Part shown: positions 24,707 to 37,047 of the stretch, one piece after another
How the letters are laid out: every line of letters begins with the position of its first letter
Numbering within the stretch: the first letter of the stretch is position 1
Program-made: the position numbers and the translations under genes
NCBI GenBank assembly: GCA_021651055.1
Contig: JAJHOH010000001.1
Location: 3,038,001 to 3,102,000, forward strand
Reading direction: 5' to 3'
Origin: Candidatus Manganitrophus morganii
Lineage (GTDB): Bacteria > Nitrospirota > Nitrospiria > SBBL01 > Manganitrophaceae
Length of the DNA stretch: 64,000 nt
Notes under the pieces: model-generated
Told to the model about the DNA's origin: nothing
Databases searched by the model: none
What the model saw: the letters and a program-made list of their open reading frames with translations, nothing else

Positions 24707-24901
24707 GCAAGCCCCCGTCTGAAGCAATCCTCGCCCGTTCCTCAAAACATCGCTTTCGCGTTTTGCTTTTCATTTTTCTTCCCGGCAATTTATTTTTTCC
24801 TCCTCTTGCGCCGGGTTCGGGAAGGGGGCTTCTCGCTCGCGGATGAAGTCACGGAATGTCGGCGCAAGCCTAGGTTTTTGCAGGAATGATTTTCAGGAAT
24901 T

Positions 24902-25026
24902 GAAGCTCCCCGCAGCAAGCTGCGGGGAGCTTCGACCCGAAAGGATGGAAAGACTCTATTTGTATTCGCGCGTCTAACCTTCGCAGCAAGCTGCGAGGAA
25001 TGCGACGCGCGTGCGTGTTCAAAATC
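24902..25026. repeat. Intergenic palindromic repeat, extended copy
   Basis: Two linked parts are present. Bases 24902-24933 form a perfect palindrome with 15-base arms and a 2-base loop. Bases 24982-25020 are the exact reverse complement of 22833-22871. The motif CGCAGCAAGCTGCG occurs at 24911-24924 and again at 24982-24995, so this copy resembles the compact one with about 71 bases added between two copies of that motif. The 380-base gap 24707-25086 contains nothing else that I recognise. Confidence 0.8.
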
Positions 25027-26849: not shown

Positions 26850-27260
26850 GTGGAACGGATTCATAGTCTTTTAAAAAAAATAAGGCGGGGGGGGGAGAAG
26901 GGATTTACCCTCATCGAATTGATGGTCGTGGTGGCGATCGTCGGCATCCTCGTCACCCTCGCCGAGCCGTCGTATCGCATCGCCACGATCAAAGCCAAAG
27001 AGGCGGCGCTCAAGAAAGATCTCTATGTCATGCGCGATGTCATCGATCAGTACCACGCGGATCAGGGGAGCTATCCCGCCGCCCTCCCCGACCTCGTCGA
27101 AAAGGGATACCTGCGGGCCATTCCGGTCGATCCTTTCACCGGAACCACCGAGACGTGGGTTGAGATTTTTGTCTCCGAAGGGGATGAATCCGGAATTTAC
27201 GACGTCCACTCCGGCAGCGATATCATCGGGACCAACGGGACTTCTTACAACGAGTGGTAG
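26850..27260 (+). CDS. GspG-like pseudopilin
   Basis: This 136-residue protein has a basic leader, a prepilin peptidase site G18/F19 (GFTLIELMVVVAIV) with Glu at position +5, and a hydrophobic helix. Then comes a GspG-type globular part with repeated aromatic residues (DQYHADQGSYPAALPDLV) and an NGTSYNEW tail. GTG start after AAGGGGAAGC. It could be the major pseudopilin of the secretion-like machine encoded at 32.0-37.6 kb. No prepilin peptidase or other pilin gene is visible. Confidence 0.85.
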   Translation: MERIHSLLKKIRRGGEKGFTLIELMVVVAIVGILVTLAEPSYRIATIKAKEAALKKDLYVMRDVIDQYHADQGSYPAALPDLVEKGYLRAIPVDPFTGTTETWVEIFVSEGDESGIYDVHSGSDIIGTNGTSYNEW

Positions 27261-27720
27261 CGGTTCACTTGTTTGAGACCGGAGCTTTCCGGATCCTCTT
27301 TCTTCGGCTAAGCTGATCTCCACCTCTCCTCATCAGACTTTCTTCCCACTCCAAAAAGTCTATAAGATAAACCCATCTAAACGATACGGGGCGCCATTTA
27401 TTTGTTTCAGTTGGATGACTTTCCGAACTTGATCGAGGAGCTTTTTCGGTTGAGGAGCGGAGGGCTGCACATGGGTCAGAAGAGGGGGATTCATGTTTTG
27501 ACCGATCAATCCTTCACGGCGGGTTTACACATACTGTATTGATTTTAGAAATTCCATGTGATATACCACCGTCGTCCATAATTTTAGAGCACAAAATTTT
27601 CTGCCTATCTCCGGTTTGGTCTTTGACTACATTATATTTTCAATATGTTAGGAATGATCAACAAGAGATAGACAGAAAAAATTCCGTAAAATAAGGCAGA
27701 AAAATTTCTGTCTATTATAT
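27261..27720. other. Non-coding transition into the AT-rich cassette region
   Basis: No gene is visible. From about 27510 the sequence becomes clearly AT-rich. Bases 27594-27610 (ending TTCTGCCTATCT) are nearly the reverse complement of AGATAGACAGAAAA starting at 27666, and a GGCAGAAAAATTTCTGTC palindrome lies near 27696. No integron integrase gene and no full attC pair could be found here; the last bases adjoin a GTTGGGC box at 27721. Confidence 0.5.
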
Positions 27721-28288
27721 GTTGGGCATCACCGTGACGCAGCCCAGTGGAGTCAGCAGGCGTATTCAACAGTGTATTGAACGCTTGCAATCAAGAGACT
27801 ACGAGGGTGCTCTGGTCAATCTGTTTCCTGCAATCGACAAGACCGCCAAGAAACGAAGACCAAAGGAAGGCGTCGGCTCACGGATACGAGCGTTTTTAGA
27901 AGACGAAGAAGCGCTCATTTCGGCCGTCGCTACAGGTAATGTACTTACGCGCATCTCGGTTAACGGCGTGAGTATTACAGACGCACTCTATAAATTTGGT
28001 CGCACGCCCATTGCTCATGAAGGTGAACTCGATCCACGCCTTCAGTTCAATGATGCGGGCTCAGTCGAGATCGGAGCGGTGCGCTGGAACCTGCCATCCG
28101 GTTACATAGTAGGTATGACCGTGGCTGTAGTCGTTGCTCCTGAGAACAAAGCAGAACGAGTCAGTGACGACCTCGGCATCACTCTGTTCGGAAAGCAGTT
28201 TCGAATAAATGAGCTGTGGGGGGAAAGACTGGTCCATGGCCTCATCTGCGAGAAATTCCGCAATCCGCGGCTATTCGAGAGAGCATGA
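27719..28288 (+). CDS. Cassette 1: unknown soluble protein
   Basis: The open frame encodes 189 residues. The ATG at 27719 overlaps the GTTGGGC box where the cassette begins, so a downstream GTG at 27734 may be the real start. Local features: LQSRDYEGALVNLFPAIDKTAKKRRP, a hydrophobic GYIVGMTVAVVVAP strand, and LWGERLVHGLICEKF near the end. No known domain is recognised. The stop lies 1 base before the 5' box of the first attC site, as expected for an integron cassette. Confidence 0.6.
   Translation: MLGITVTQPSGVSRRIQQCIERLQSRDYEGALVNLFPAIDKTAKKRRPKEGVGSRIRAFLEDEEALISAVATGNVLTRISVNGVSITDALYKFGRTPIAHEGELDPRLQFNDAGSVEIGAVRWNLPSGYIVGMTVAVVVAPENKAERVSDDLGITLFGKQFRINELWGERLVHGLICEKFRNPRLFERA
27721..27727 (+). 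other. Cassette boundary box (GTTGGGC)
   Basis: A GTTRRRY core sequence, identical to the 3' box of the first attC site (28339-28345). It marks the 5' junction of the first cassette. A matching upstream box was not found, so it may be the end of a lost attC or an attI-like site. Confidence 0.45.
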
Positions 28289-28289
28289 T

Positions 28290-28345
28290 GCCCAACACTT
28301 CCACGCGACTCGCGAAACGCTCGCGCGTGAAGCACAACGTTGGGC
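28290..28345 (+). repeat. attC site 1
   Basis: GCCCAAC (28290-28296) and GTTGGGC (28339-28345) are perfectly complementary RYYYAAC / GTTRRRY boxes. Between them lies a stem (CTTC...ACGCG...TCGCG, a short AAA turn, then CGC...CGCGT...GAAG) with an unpaired base, as in folded attC sites. Total 56 bases. The preceding gene ends 2 bases before it and the next gene starts 26 bases after it. Confidence 0.8.
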
Positions 28346-28370
28346 TCGATAACGTTGGAGGTCTACCATT

Positions 28371-28805
28371 ATGATTGGTCGTCTAGCGGGCTGGCCTGTG
28401 GTCTTTGCGGTTCTTACAGGTGGTTGCGCCATAATGCAGATTGATAATACTGTGCAGAGGATTGATAGTTCTGTCGGTCTTTACTGGGCGGCAGCGGCTT
28501 CAGTGAAACTCGGCGACTCCAAAGAGCATGTTCTTACAACCCTCGCACCGACCCAGACCTCCTTATCGCCCAAAGAACGCAAGCAGTCGGATACCTTTAG
28601 GCAAGGTGACTCCATCATTGAAATCCAGTACTTTCGGAGCGGACGACAACCCGATGGTCTCACGACAGACGACGAGTTCACCCCTTACGTATTCACTGAT
28701 GGCGTTCTGACATCGATCGGGTGGACATCGCTTGGTGGCCCACGGTCTCGTGGTCAGGCAATCCAGCCGCCGCCGATAATTAACCAAAAGGTCATCGTCA
28801 AGTAA
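28371..28805 (+). CDS. Cassette 2: small lipoprotein of unknown function
   Basis: This 144-residue protein has a lipobox ending at Cys19 (LTGGC) and a region DSKEHVLTTLAPTQ that resembles the SmpA/BamE or DUF3192 small-lipoprotein pattern. No firm match. ATG after GTTGGAGG. It lies between attC site 1 and a degenerate attC-like stretch, so it is probably a mobile cassette encoding an envelope protein. Confidence 0.7.
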   Translation: MIGRLAGWPVVFAVLTGGCAIMQIDNTVQRIDSSVGLYWAAAASVKLGDSKEHVLTTLAPTQTSLSPKERKQSDTFRQGDSIIEIQYFRSGRQPDGLTTDDEFTPYVFTDGVLTSIGWTSLGGPRSRGQAIQPPPIINQKVIVK

Positions 28806-28892
28806 CAGTGTCATGTCACTGGAGCCGACCGCTCAACAGCGCGAGTGCTCATCATGCTCTCGTAGCCCGCGAGTGGCGGCTCGGTACCAGGT
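28797..28892 (+). repeat. Degenerate attC-like site 2
   Basis: The stretch contains GGAGCCGACC (28821-28830), GCTCAAC (28831-28837, an exact RYYYAAC) and GCGGCTCGGT (28876-28885), the arrangement of attC inner boxes. No exact GTTRRRY box follows. It sits at the expected place between two cassette genes and overlaps the upstream stop. I regard it as a decayed or atypical attC. Confidence 0.4.
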
Positions 28893-28905
28893 AATTCGAA
28901 TCAAA

Positions 28906-29598
28906 ATGGCAAACAAAGACACAGCTATTTCCAAGATAGATCAGGTCAACACCGCTTTTTCAACTTCGCCTATTGTCAAGGGTCTGATCGACGGTGGATT
29001 ATCCCTTATTCCCTTCCTCGGGCAAGCGATTACCTCCGCACTAGATACGCGAGCATTTCAACTTTTTGAACAAAATTCGAAGAGTTTTGCGGAAGAAGTA
29101 AAAAAACTGATGGACAAAGTTGACGAGAGTAAAGTTGATAAACGCTTCATTCATTCTACCGAATTTGTTTCTCTTCTAATCGATATACTAGCCCGAAATG
29201 CCCACACTCATGAAGAAGAAAAAATTAATCTCTATGCAAAGCTCTTTGTCAATTTCACAAAGCATGGAAATTCAGAAACTCCATATAAGGAAGGACTAAT
29301 CCGGATAATAGATGAACTCGGTGTAGAACACATCCGAATTTTGGCTTTCATCAAAGAAAAGGATAAAATTTCTACTCCCAAGGATGGTAAGTCATCAACC
29401 ACTGATGTCCAATTACATGAGATCGCGCAGGCCACCGGCATACCTAAATCTCGTGTCCAAGCGTATTGTGATCAGATGATACGATTTGGTTTGCTTCAAG
29501 ATGCAGCTATAGGTTATTTCGGCTATGAGCCCGGCTCATATGCTATAACTGAATACGGGTACGAATTGACGAGATTTCTAACAGAACAGGTTTCGTGA
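28906..29598 (+). CDS. Cassette 3: unknown protein with C-terminal winged-helix-like region
   Basis: I take the ATG at 28906 (MANKDTAIS, 230 residues); an upstream ATG at 28813 lies inside the attC-like stretch. N-terminal part: a Gly-rich hydrophobic segment (GLSLIPFLGQAITS), then long helices (EKINLYAKLFVNFTKH). C-terminal part: LHEIAQATGIPKSRVQAYC, a typical helix-turn-helix, and a YAITEYGYELTRFL end as in MarR/PadR-type wings. The helical middle resembles some abortive-infection proteins only in style. The gene is AT-rich relative to its neighbours. Confidence 0.65.
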   Translation: MANKDTAISKIDQVNTAFSTSPIVKGLIDGGLSLIPFLGQAITSALDTRAFQLFEQNSKSFAEEVKKLMDKVDESKVDKRFIHSTEFVSLLIDILARNAHTHEEEKINLYAKLFVNFTKHGNSETPYKEGLIRIIDELGVEHIRILAFIKEKDKISTPKDGKSSTTDVQLHEIAQATGIPKSRVQAYCDQMIRFGLLQDAAIGYFGYEPGSYAITEYGYELTRFLTEQVS

Positions 29599-29607
29599 TG
29601 CCGACTT

Positions 29608-29696
29608 GCCCAACCAGGCGCTGGAGCCCGACCGCTAAAGAGCCCGCATTATTTTGGTGAGGGTCGTTCAGCGGCGGCTCACCTTTAACGTTAGGG
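29608..29696 (+). repeat. attC site 3
   Basis: GCCCAAC (29608-29614) and GTTAGGG (29690-29696) bracket 89 bases. Inner boxes GGCGCTGGAGCCCGACC and GCGGCGGCTC match the classical arrangement. The last base of the 3' box deviates from GTTRRRY. It follows the stop of cassette 3 by 9 bases. Confidence 0.75.
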
Positions 29697-29704
29697 GTCA
29701 GATC

Positions 29705-29764
29705 ATGAGCAAGGAATTGCGTCACGAGCTTATCGCTGCCGCTCTCCAGTACAAACAAACAGCG
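29705..29764 (+). pseudogene. Truncated cassette gene start
   Basis: An ATG 8 bases after attC site 3 opens a 19-codon frame (MSKELRHELIAAALQYKQTA) that ends at a TAA shortly before a REP-like hairpin at 29776-29833. I infer that the first gene of this cassette was cut short when the hairpin element or a rearrangement entered. Confidence 0.4.
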
Positions 29765-29775
29765 TAAAACAAACA

Positions 29776-29833
29776 GGGCCAGGTCTACAAATTTGACTAT
29801 AGGACTCTAATACACAATTTGTAGACCTGGCCC
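29776..29833. repeat. REP-like hairpin (18-base arms)
   Basis: Perfect inverted arms at 29776-29793 (starting GGGCCAGGTCTACAAATT) and 29816-29833 with a 22-base loop. GGCCAGGTCT arms of this type are common in dispersed REP/RAYT-associated elements. It lies inside the fourth cassette, between a truncated gene start and the reductase gene. Confidence 0.65.
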
Positions 29834-29953
29834 CGACCGACAACGATTCAATTTCCGTGGTAGGCGACACAGGGTGAGCACCTCGCGAATTGGGCTCGTG
29901 CCCTTGGAGCCAGACGGCGGGCGGCTCGTCGCGTATCTCGAACGGAGGACACC

Positions 29954-30511
29954 ATGGGACTCTTGACCTTCAGTATCAACGTCACCCTGGACGGCTGTGT
30001 CGACCACCGGGAGGGAATCGCCGACGACGAGACACACGCCTTCTTCACCCGCCTCATGGACGAGGGCGGGGCGATGCTGTGGGGCCGCGTCACCTACGAG
30101 ATGATGGAGAGCTACTGGCCGGCGGTCGCCCGCGGCGAGGTGGAGGCACCGCCGGCGATGCGCGAGTGGGCGGTCAAGTTGGAGGCCAAGCCGAAGTACG
30201 TCGTGTCCTCGACGCGAAGGAACTTCCCGTGGACCAACAGCCACCATATCGCCGGCGACCTGCGCACGGGTGTGCAGAAGCTGAAGGACGCGACCCCGGC
30301 CGGCGTGCTCCTCGGTAGCGGCAAGCTTGCGACCGAGCTGGACCGGCTGGATCTGATCGACGAGTACAAGTTCCTCGTCCACCCCAGGATCGCCGGCCAC
30401 GGCCCGACCCTGTACGAGAGTGGGCTGCCCAGCACCCGACGGCTCGAGTTGATCTCGGCGAAGCCGCTCCGCAACGGCGCGGTCGCCATGCACTACCGGC
30501 GCGCGCGCTGA
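29954..30511 (+). CDS. Cassette 4: RibD_C/dihydrofolate-reductase-like protein
   Basis: This 185-residue protein starts with ATG after GAACGGAGG. It shows the RibD C-terminal fold pattern: FSINVTLDGCVD at the N-terminus, MLWGRVTYEMME, KYVVSSTRRNF, LLGSGKLATELDRLDLIDEY and HPRIAGHGPTL. Members reduce pterin or pyrimidine substrates with NADPH, but many are uncharacterised. It is very GC-rich compared with the preceding cassettes. It ends 19 bases before attC site 4. Confidence 0.8.
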   Translation: MGLLTFSINVTLDGCVDHREGIADDETHAFFTRLMDEGGAMLWGRVTYEMMESYWPAVARGEVEAPPAMREWAVKLEAKPKYVVSSTRRNFPWTNSHHIAGDLRTGVQKLKDATPAGVLLGSGKLATELDRLDLIDEYKFLVHPRIAGHGPTLYESGLPSTRRLELISAKPLRNGAVAMHYRRAR

Positions 30512-30530
30512 CTCGGAGATGGGTCATGTC

Positions 30531-30598
30531 GCCTAACAACGCGCTGCACTCGGACGGCCTCGCGTTGCTCGGCCCGCCGGTGAGCGCGGGCGTTAGGC
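30531..30598 (+). repeat. attC site 4
   Basis: GCCTAAC (30531-30537) and GTTAGGC (30592-30598) are perfect complements flanking 68 bases with GC-rich inner arms (GCGCTGCACTCGGACGGC and GTGAGCGCGGGC). It is the clearest attC in the window. Confidence 0.88.
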
Positions 30599-30618
30599 CA
30601 GAAAGAAGGAACGATACG

Positions 30619-30960
30619 ATGCCTCGGTACTTGATTTCGTTTGATGACGGCTCGATGGACCATATTCCTGATGAAGATTGGCCGTCGGTGGGCGAGGCAT
30701 CACATAATGTGGTTCGGGAAGCAAAGGCCGCAGGGGTTTGGATCTTCGGCGGCGGTGTCCAGCGCCAGCAATCGACCATTGTTGCGACAGACGGGACCAT
30801 CTCGGCCGGACCAGTGCCGGAGACAAAGGCAGTTATCGGCGGGTTTTCAATCATCGAGGTTTCTTCACGTGAGGAGGCACTCGTTTGGGCTGCCCGGCTC
30901 GCCGCTGGGTGTCGCTGCGCGCAGGAGGTTCGCGAGATCATGTTCGACCCGGAGTCCTGA
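30619..30960 (+). CDS. Cassette 5: YCII-family protein
   Basis: This 113-residue protein starts at the ATG at 30619 (MPRYLISFDDG); an earlier in-frame start would lie inside attC site 4. Pattern: two beta strands, a helix, GVWIFGGGVQ, FSIIEVSSREEALVWAARL. This is the ferredoxin-like YCII/DGPF fold found in small dehydratase-like or unknown-function proteins. ATG preceded by GAAGGAACG. Confidence 0.8.
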   Translation: MPRYLISFDDGSMDHIPDEDWPSVGEASHNVVREAKAAGVWIFGGGVQRQQSTIVATDGTISAGPVPETKAVIGGFSIIEVSSREEALVWAARLAAGCRCAQEVREIMFDPES

Positions 30961-30982
30961 TAGGAGTTTGCTGGACCGTGTG

Positions 30983-31069
30983 GCCTAATTTTAAAAACCG
31001 GGACACATCCCAATTTAAAGACCGCTGATGCTGGGTGATTCTCATGCCACGGTGAGCGCGTGCGGTTGC
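30983..31069 (+). repeat. Broken attC remnant at the array end
   Basis: GCCTAAT (30983-30989) resembles an attC 5' box. Further on, CACGGTGAGCGCGTGCGGTT (about 31050-31069) matches the 3' half of attC site 4. Between them is unrelated sequence containing an ACCGGGACAC/ATCCC stretch. I infer an interrupted last attC; the array seems to end here, before mazG. Confidence 0.4.
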
Positions 31070-31201: not shown

Positions 31202-32002
31202 ATGTCGAAATCATTCGATCAGCTCGTCGCGCTGATGGAACGGCTGCGCGCGGAAGGGGGATGTCCGTGGGACCTCGCGCAGACCCCCGAATCGCTGAAG
31301 CCCTTTTTAATCGAAGAAGCGTATGAAGTCCTCGAAGCGATCGAAGCGGGAAAGGCCGAGCCGCTCTGCGAGGAGCTCGGCGACCTTCTCTTCCAGGTTC
31401 TCTTCTATGCGCAAATCGCGAAGGAGCGAAGCCAGTTCGATATCGAAGCGGTCGTGAAGACCTCGTTGGAAAAGATGACCCGCCGGCATCCGCACGTCTT
31501 CTCCCCGGAGCAATCGGAGGCCCCTCCCCTCGATCAGCAAGCGGTCTTATCCCGATGGGAGGAGATGAAGAAAAAAGAAGATCGAAATCAATCCCGCAAA
31601 TCGGCATTAGACGGAATTCCGCGACAGCTTCCGGCGCTTTTGCGAGCGCACCAGATCCAGGCGAGGGCGGCCCGGGTCGGATTTGATTGGAAGACGATTG
31701 AGCCGGTCTTTGGTAAAATTGAGGAAGAATTTCAGGAGGTTCGAATCGCGGCGGCGGAAGGCGTTCCCGCTCGGATTGAAGCGGAGGTCGGAGATCTCCT
31801 CTTCACGGTGGTGAATGCGGCCCGCTTCCTAAAGGTGAACCCGGAAGATGCGCTTCGCGGGACGATTCAACGTTTCACCGACCGGTTTCAAATAATGGAG
31901 TCGGAAGCAAAACAGCGGGGGGTGTCGCTCGACACGCTCTCTCTGGAGGAAATGGATGCCCTCTGGGAAAAAGCGAAGAAAGATGAAACACGGGAGGCGT
32001 GA
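31202..32002 (+). CDS. mazG: Nucleoside triphosphate pyrophosphohydrolase MazG
   Basis: This 266-residue protein carries two MazG all-alpha pyrophosphohydrolase domains, at about residues 10-115 (GGCPWDLAQTPESLKPFLIE, EELGDLLFQ) and 140-255 (EEFQEVRIAA, EVGDLLFT). EExxE and ExxD metal-binding sets are visible in both halves. It removes pyrophosphate from NTPs, limiting aberrant nucleotides. First gene after the cassette array; the stop overlaps a stem-loop. Confidence 0.93.
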   Translation: MSKSFDQLVALMERLRAEGGCPWDLAQTPESLKPFLIEEAYEVLEAIEAGKAEPLCEELGDLLFQVLFYAQIAKERSQFDIEAVVKTSLEKMTRRHPHVFSPEQSEAPPLDQQAVLSRWEEMKKKEDRNQSRKSALDGIPRQLPALLRAHQIQARAARVGFDWKTIEPVFGKIEEEFQEVRIAAAEGVPARIEAEVGDLLFTVVNAARFLKVNPEDALRGTIQRFTDRFQIMESEAKQRGVSLDTLSLEEMDALWEKAKKDETREA

Positions 32003-36517: not shown

Positions 36518-37047
36518 TCCTCTCCGTAAAGGGGTTCCTCGCCCGGTTTGGCCGGCCGCTTTTTTTGTTCCTCCTCTTGGCGGGGCTCCTTCTCTTTGTG
36601 CACGCCGGAAGGGTCGTTCCGCTTCAGAAAGAGATCATTGCCAGGGAAACCAAATGGCAATCGGAGCGGCCGAAAATCGGTCAACTCACCACGCTCAAAA
36701 CGGCGCAGCAAGAGTTGATTCTCTTCCACCAGCGCCTTCCCGAGGAGACGGCGCTTTCGGAAGTGGTCTCGTTTGTTTCCGATTCGGCCGCGGCCCATCG
36801 CCTCTCGATTCCGGCGATTTCGTATCAGCCGGAAAACGTCAGCGCGCCGGGGCTGATGAAGGTGCTGATTTCATTCAGCGTCAAAGGGAACTATCGGGAT
36901 ATTCGGAATTTGATTTATCGTTTGGAGCAGTCGGGCTATTTCCTCGTTCTGGAGAATCTGGTGCTTGCCTCCTCCAGCAGAGAAGGGGAAGCGATCCAGC
37001 TTCAACTTCGGATCGCAGCCTATTTCCGAGAAGGAAAGGGTTCGTAG
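36514..37047 (+). CDS. PilO-like inner-membrane protein
   Basis: This 177-residue protein has one N-terminal span (about 11-30), a coiled-coil stretch and a C-terminal ferredoxin-like domain (LMKVLISFSVKGNYRDIRNL). PilO pairs with PilN in the periplasm to align the machine with the secretin. ATGA overlap with the upstream gene. Confidence 0.75.
   Translation: MILSVKGFLARFGRPLFLFLLLAGLLLFVHAGRVVPLQKEIIARETKWQSERPKIGQLTTLKTAQQELILFHQRLPEETALSEVVSFVSDSAAAHRLSIPAISYQPENVSAPGLMKVLISFSVKGNYRDIRNLIYRLEQSGYFLVLENLVLASSSREGEAIQLQLRIAAYFREGKGS

Follow-up and report, generated by a model that had tools for sequence, protein, structure and literature searches.

Positions 27403–31069 of the window, the 64-kb stretch of DNA analysed here (G000:C1:3038001-3102000), are best read as a chromosomal integron whose integrase gene, intI, was truncated in place. 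Formally the array is a CALIN, and its cassettes may have been loaded by an integrase acting in trans. We place the probability of this reading at roughly 0.85; the identification as an integron is secure, and the trans step is what we infer from comparison of related genomes. The array consists of an intI stub of 31 codons, an attI that looks intact, and five cassettes; three of the attC sites are good, one is degenerate and one is broken. The initial annotation placed a cluster of integron cassettes and attC sites between a pseudopilin gene and mazG; the observation is confirmed, and its interpretation is partly supported. Six genomes of the genus, Ca. Manganitrophus, were compared (G000–G005); G000, the source of the window, is a complete single-contig chromosome of 4.287 Mb, and most of the others are drafts. 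The features, in window positions, are as follows.

26850–27260, plus strand: pseudopilin-like gene, left array flank (Pfam N_methyl, 2e-8; orthologous and syntenic in G004, G002, G003 and G005)
27261–27402, no strand: ancestral intergenic DNA 3′ of the pseudopilin gene, outside intI (present in G000, G004, G002 and partly G003)
27403–27494, minus strand: intI relic, truncated, first ~31 codons, MNPPLLTHVQPSAPQPKKLLDQVRKVIQLKQ (IntI N-terminal HMM, E 2.4e-4)
27518–27727, plus strand: attI element, core GTTGGGC at 27721–27727 (nine copies in the genus)
27539–27567, plus strand: promoter-like block, candidate Pc, facing the cassettes (TTGATT-17-TATACC, preceded by TG; conserved in 9/9 attI copies)
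27719–28288, plus strand: cassette gene 1, no family match (open reading frame; ATG spans the attI/cassette junction)
28290–28345, plus strand: attC of cassette 1 (30.3 bits, E 2.8e-5; strict scan)
28371–28805, plus strand: cassette gene 2, lipoprotein-like, weak DUF3192 (Pfam 27.1 bits against a cut-off of 26.9)
28810–28892, plus strand: plausible degenerate attC of cassette 2 (14.4 bits, E 0.22; position and L boxes fit)
28906–29598, plus strand: cassette gene 3, distantly Abi_alpha-like with a winged-helix end (Abi_alpha E 3.6e-4, below cut-off)
29608–29696, plus strand: attC of cassette 3 (20.4 bits, E 0.0076)
29776–29833, no strand: REP-like long hairpin, inserted 3′ of attC3 and ahead of cassette gene 4 (folds into a long stem)
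29954–30511, plus strand: cassette gene 4, RibD_C reductase family (Pfam RibD_C, 7e-14)
30531–30598, plus strand: attC of cassette 4 (39.1 bits, E 2e-7)
30619–30960, plus strand: cassette gene 5, YCII family (Pfam YCII, 6.5e-7)
30983–31069, plus strand: broken attC of cassette 5, with a GCCTAA left half, a REP-like insert and a CGGTGAGCGCGTGCGGTT right half (no match to the model)
31202–32002, plus strand: mazG, right array flank (Pfam MazG, 6.6e-38; genus-wide synteny)

A T2SSF gene (Pfam) also lies on the right flank, on the mazG side, and an Rfam search of the window returned tRNA only.

attC sites were scored with a covariance model trained on 20 sites, of which 12 belong to class 1 cassettes on plasmids and 8 to Nitrospirota; the genus and the window contributed none. 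The three highest-scoring positions in the window were 30531–30598, 28290–28345 and 29608–29696, which are the two sites originally called clear and the one called near-clear, and all three scored as attC. A strict scan for R″/L″/L′/R′ boxes on both strands of the 64 kb returned 28290–28345 and 30531–30598 only, both as exact matches. For these two sites the bottom strand scored 30.3 bits versus 8.2 on the top strand, and 39.1 versus 10.7, respectively. The four best sites of the array share one orientation. Judged by complementary R″/R′ boxes (RYYYAAC..GTTRRRY), L″/L′ boxes, spacing and the bottom strand, two sites are clear and one is moderate. The site at 28810–28892 ranked fourth at noise level, with an unrelated stretch at 36735–36816 scoring 14.3 bits, and is a plausible attC by its position only. 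At 30983–31069 the model gave no match; the two halves of attC5 are split by a REP-like insert that is common to G004, and G002 carries a different insert. The lesser sites of the initial annotation thus stand as one degenerate site indistinguishable from noise by score and one site broken by an insert and unscored. A copy of the cassette 3 attC, 83.5% identical, is present in the array of G002.

Cassette genes end 2–23 bases before their attC sites, in line with the few bases first noted, and their strongly differing composition was confirmed by measurement, with GC contents of 0.52, 0.53, 0.43, 0.67 and 0.58 for genes 1 to 5 (a span of 0.43–0.67) against 0.56 for the window. Searches of cassette gene 1 against Pfam, NCBIfam, PADLOC and plasmids gave no match, and the gene was not present in the other genus arrays examined. 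For cassette gene 3, the listed open reading frame starts at 28813 and overlaps attC2; the ATG at 28906 is the more likely start. This gene was found in G000 alone among 117 genomes. Cassette gene 4 is common to G000 and G004 (96%), and cassette gene 5 to G000, G004 and G002 (98% at the nucleotide level). At 27719–27721 the end of attI reads ATG, the G of which is the core G; an in-frame cassette gains a start codon from attI, and both cassette gene 1 and the first G004 cassette open from this ATG.

Several repeats accompany the array. The REP-like hairpin at 29776–29833 recurs as the same element in locus 2 of G004 (see below). REP-like palindromes (..AAAACCGGGACA.., ..GGGCCAGGTCTA..) occur in or beside attC at least four times in the genus, at 30983–31026 and 29776–29833, in L050, in L089 near 10800 (reverse complement) and in L047; such elements may prefer attC hairpins. 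A repeated MITE-like element of ~125 bp with strong hairpins lies at 24899–25022, a 98% identical copy adjoins mazG in G002, and others are present in G004 and G001.

The initial annotation described the cluster as lacking an integrase. It was correct that the window holds no tyrosine recombinase gene, but a relic of the intI N-terminus at 27403–27494 had been missed. Upstream of cassette 1, a minus-strand frame reads MNPPLLTHVQPSAPQPKKLLDQVRKVIQLKQ, after which similarity is lost. With an N-terminal HMM built from intact IntI proteins of relatives in the order and class, this frame ranked first among 1635 six-frame fragments from the window (E 2.4e-4); the G004 copy, searched for within a smaller set, scored E 3e-6, and a paralogous, less decayed copy in G005, which runs on to KKLLDQVREIIRLKHYSIRTD, scored E 1.5e-11. 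The first rank of the frame and the longer G005 copy show that the locus once held the start of a true intI, now truncated after ~31 codons, the relic itself being short; NCBIfam and Pfam alone did not recognise the 44-aa relic open reading frame. The junction of the relic with the pseudopilin intergenic region is common to G000, G004 and G002. An extension of the relic back to the pseudopilin stop was considered and rejected, as comparison with G003 and G002 shows 27261–27402 to be older intergenic DNA.

A genome-wide search for intI, which had been suggested as a check, found no intact copy in the G000 chromosome or in any of the remaining five genomes of the genus, mostly drafts (TIGR02249 over cut-off); in the same search TIGR02249 exceeded its cut-off in 12/58 relatives of the same order and class. 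TIGR02249 matches in G000 are Xer-like, with no IntI-specific stretch, and were rejected as integron integrases. A functional intI with the IntI-specific domain is thus absent from G000–G005, with only the 31-codon stub at locus 1, the array in the window. Two other rearranged copies were observed. On another contig of G002 (L119 6504–6738; G002:C9:26504-26738), an internally deleted intI joins residues about 1–50 to 278–314; in G005 (L092 7560–11621), an intI stub and attI lie mid-array with attC on both sides, as if two arrays had fused.

Between the relic and the first cassette lies the attI element, ~205 bp long (27518–27722), which recurs at nine places in 5/6 genus genomes. All nine copies end at a core GTT (GCT in one, GTC in another), and different DNA follows each. 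Conservation is strongest in the last ~65 bases and in the promoter-like block, whose sequence TTGNTTTTA..TGTGRTATACC is kept in 9/9 copies; a strict sigma-70 scan did not call the candidate Pc block at 27539–27567. The element holds direct and inverted copies of TAGACAGAAA, as would be expected of putative integrase binding sites, and crossover is expected between 27721 and 27722. The layout is that of an integron, with the intI relic on the minus strand, attI between, cassettes on the plus strand and the boundary at the G|TT core. Outside the genus, the relatives searched showed nothing of attI except a 23-base stretch. When GTDB genomes were scanned with the attI pattern, a single match fell outside the genus, in Undibacterium, and a scan of viral contigs gave none. 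The Undibacterium match was discarded, since its 8 kb shows no integrase similarity and it looks like a terminator.

The second attI copy of G000 is at 1713394–1713558, 3′ of a GNAT gene, and heads a second array (locus 2) with attC sites at 1714128–1714190, 1714540–1714601 and 1715013–1715078. No trace of intI was detected at locus 2 of G000. The six best attC matches of the G000 chromosome all lie near one of the two attI copies. A duplication of the GNAT gene's 3′ end brackets the locus 2 array (L088 7210–7310 and 9687–9798; L089). A unit with an AbiU2-like HEPN gene and the attI unit are swapped in order between G000 and G004, as if they were separate islands inserting at the end of the GNAT gene.

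Comparison between species showed that arrays differ immediately past attI. At locus 1, G000 and G004 match mostly at 95–100%, with dips, up to the core, and at 97–100% over the attI element. Past the core, G000 carries cassettes 1–3 and G004 four others (X1–X4), and the two rejoin at cassettes 4 and 5 and mazG. In G002, cassette 5 is the only one kept. The genes are thus not in one fixed order in close relatives, as G004 and G002 carry different cassettes. The locus 2 left flank is alike in G000, G004 and G002 as far as the core, past which the three differ completely. The first locus 2 cassette of G000 is 98.3% identical over 636 bp, core to core, to a cassette in mid-array in G001; the two sequences are alike from one core site to the next, and elsewhere that G001 contig resembles the G000 stretches compared in one short repeat only. 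Chromosomal genes of G000 and G001 are about 74–86% identical, which argues that the shared cassette was transferred well after the two lineages diverged, with a locus that lacks an integrase gene as either its destination or its source. At both loci, cassettes vary between close relatives behind a shared attI, a pattern that, together with the cassette shared core to core with G001, fits entry at attI.

These observations suggest a mechanism in which the resident intI was lost in place, and attI, the candidate promoter and the cassettes stayed. An integrase supplied in trans, by a mobile element or by a strain still having one, would load cassettes into the intI-less attI through ordinary attI × attC recombination, and the cassettes would be expressed from the promoter-like block beside attI. 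No IntI that could act in trans is now present elsewhere in the G000 chromosome or in the genus genomes, and we infer its action to be past; the attI platforms would have been used recently. We give about even odds to the broader proposal that the genus keeps several dispersed attI platforms (attI and promoter, no integrase) in each genome, with a transient trans-acting integrase keeping capture going.

A rather unlikely alternative, although one with several observations in its favour, is that intI has long been dead, that no later integrase acted, and that deletions, REP-like insertions and exchange with other strains by homologous recombination account for all present differences between species. 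The stretch that spans attI and the intI relic is mosaic, which is also the chief caution on the mechanism with an integrase in trans: identity between G000 and G002 falls from 95% to 30–80% near 27440, and between G000 and G004 it dips to 80% at 27381–27440. Homologous recombination has therefore moved attI alleles, perhaps with their arrays, and differing cassettes are not in themselves proof that an integrase acted once intI had been lost. Broken and degenerate attC sites with REP-like inserts, the fixed distal positions of cassettes 4 and 5, and the usually identical arrays of Xanthomonas strains that share an intI lesion (PMC12444791) point the same way. However, G000 and G004 share the same lesion and a near-identical attI, yet differ in their attI-proximal cassettes, and the 98.3% G001-like cassette ends exactly at cores in an intI-less locus, between genomes that differ by 14–26%. 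That single cassette is the only observation that homologous recombination does not easily explain.

It is very improbable that the array was never an integron in place and arose when cassettes were inserted off target, at a secondary site hit by chance. Such insertion is among the origins proposed for CALINs (PMC8618304), and G000 has no intact intI, but the idea is contradicted by the insertion point, a 205-bp conserved attI beside a divergent intI start. Chance inverted repeats between ordinary chromosomal genes can be dismissed: two of the five sites do not rise above noise, but the best two reach E 2e-7 and 2.8e-5 with a model built elsewhere, orientation and gene spacing are correct, nothing comparable is matched elsewhere in the window, and a second attC cluster lies at the second attI.

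Loading in trans, if it occurs, bears on how integrons are surveyed. Whether an integron counts as active or dead is usually decided by the intactness of intI. Arrays behind an intI-less attI differ in sister species and one cassette has moved recently between species; turnover may therefore have continued here after the resident integrase was lost. CALINs and orphan attI would then be live docking points, and surveys keyed to intI would under-count integron activity. None of the papers searched describes integrons in Ca. Manganitrophus, and the literature yielded nothing useful on orphan attI.

The Manganitrophus array can be compared with three known systems. It shares its attC architecture (R″, L″ with an extrahelical base, L′ and R′) with the cassettes of class 1 plasmid integrons, which formed part of the model training; unlike those, it has no recognised resistance genes, no mobile backbone and a different attI. 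CALIN is the IntegronFinder term for attC clusters lacking an integron integrase. The initial reading as a CALIN holds in that there are at least two attC sites and no intI within reach, but this is not a bare cluster: attI, the promoter-like block and the intI stub are kept, and its origin, loss in place, is therefore readable. Proposed origins of CALINs include intI loss, off-target insertion and rearrangement (PMC8618304), and CALINs are in principle mobilisable in trans (PMC12444791, PMC8618304). The closest likeness is to the sedentary chromosomal integrons of Xanthomonas downstream of ilvD, which also occupy a fixed chromosomal site, where intI has repeatedly been lost or truncated in place and the attC array kept (PMC12444791). 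Whereas the same intI lesion in Xanthomonas usually goes with identical arrays, the same truncation junction in Manganitrophus is followed by different attI-proximal cassettes, and G000 differs further in having two dispersed attI elements, neither with an intact intI.
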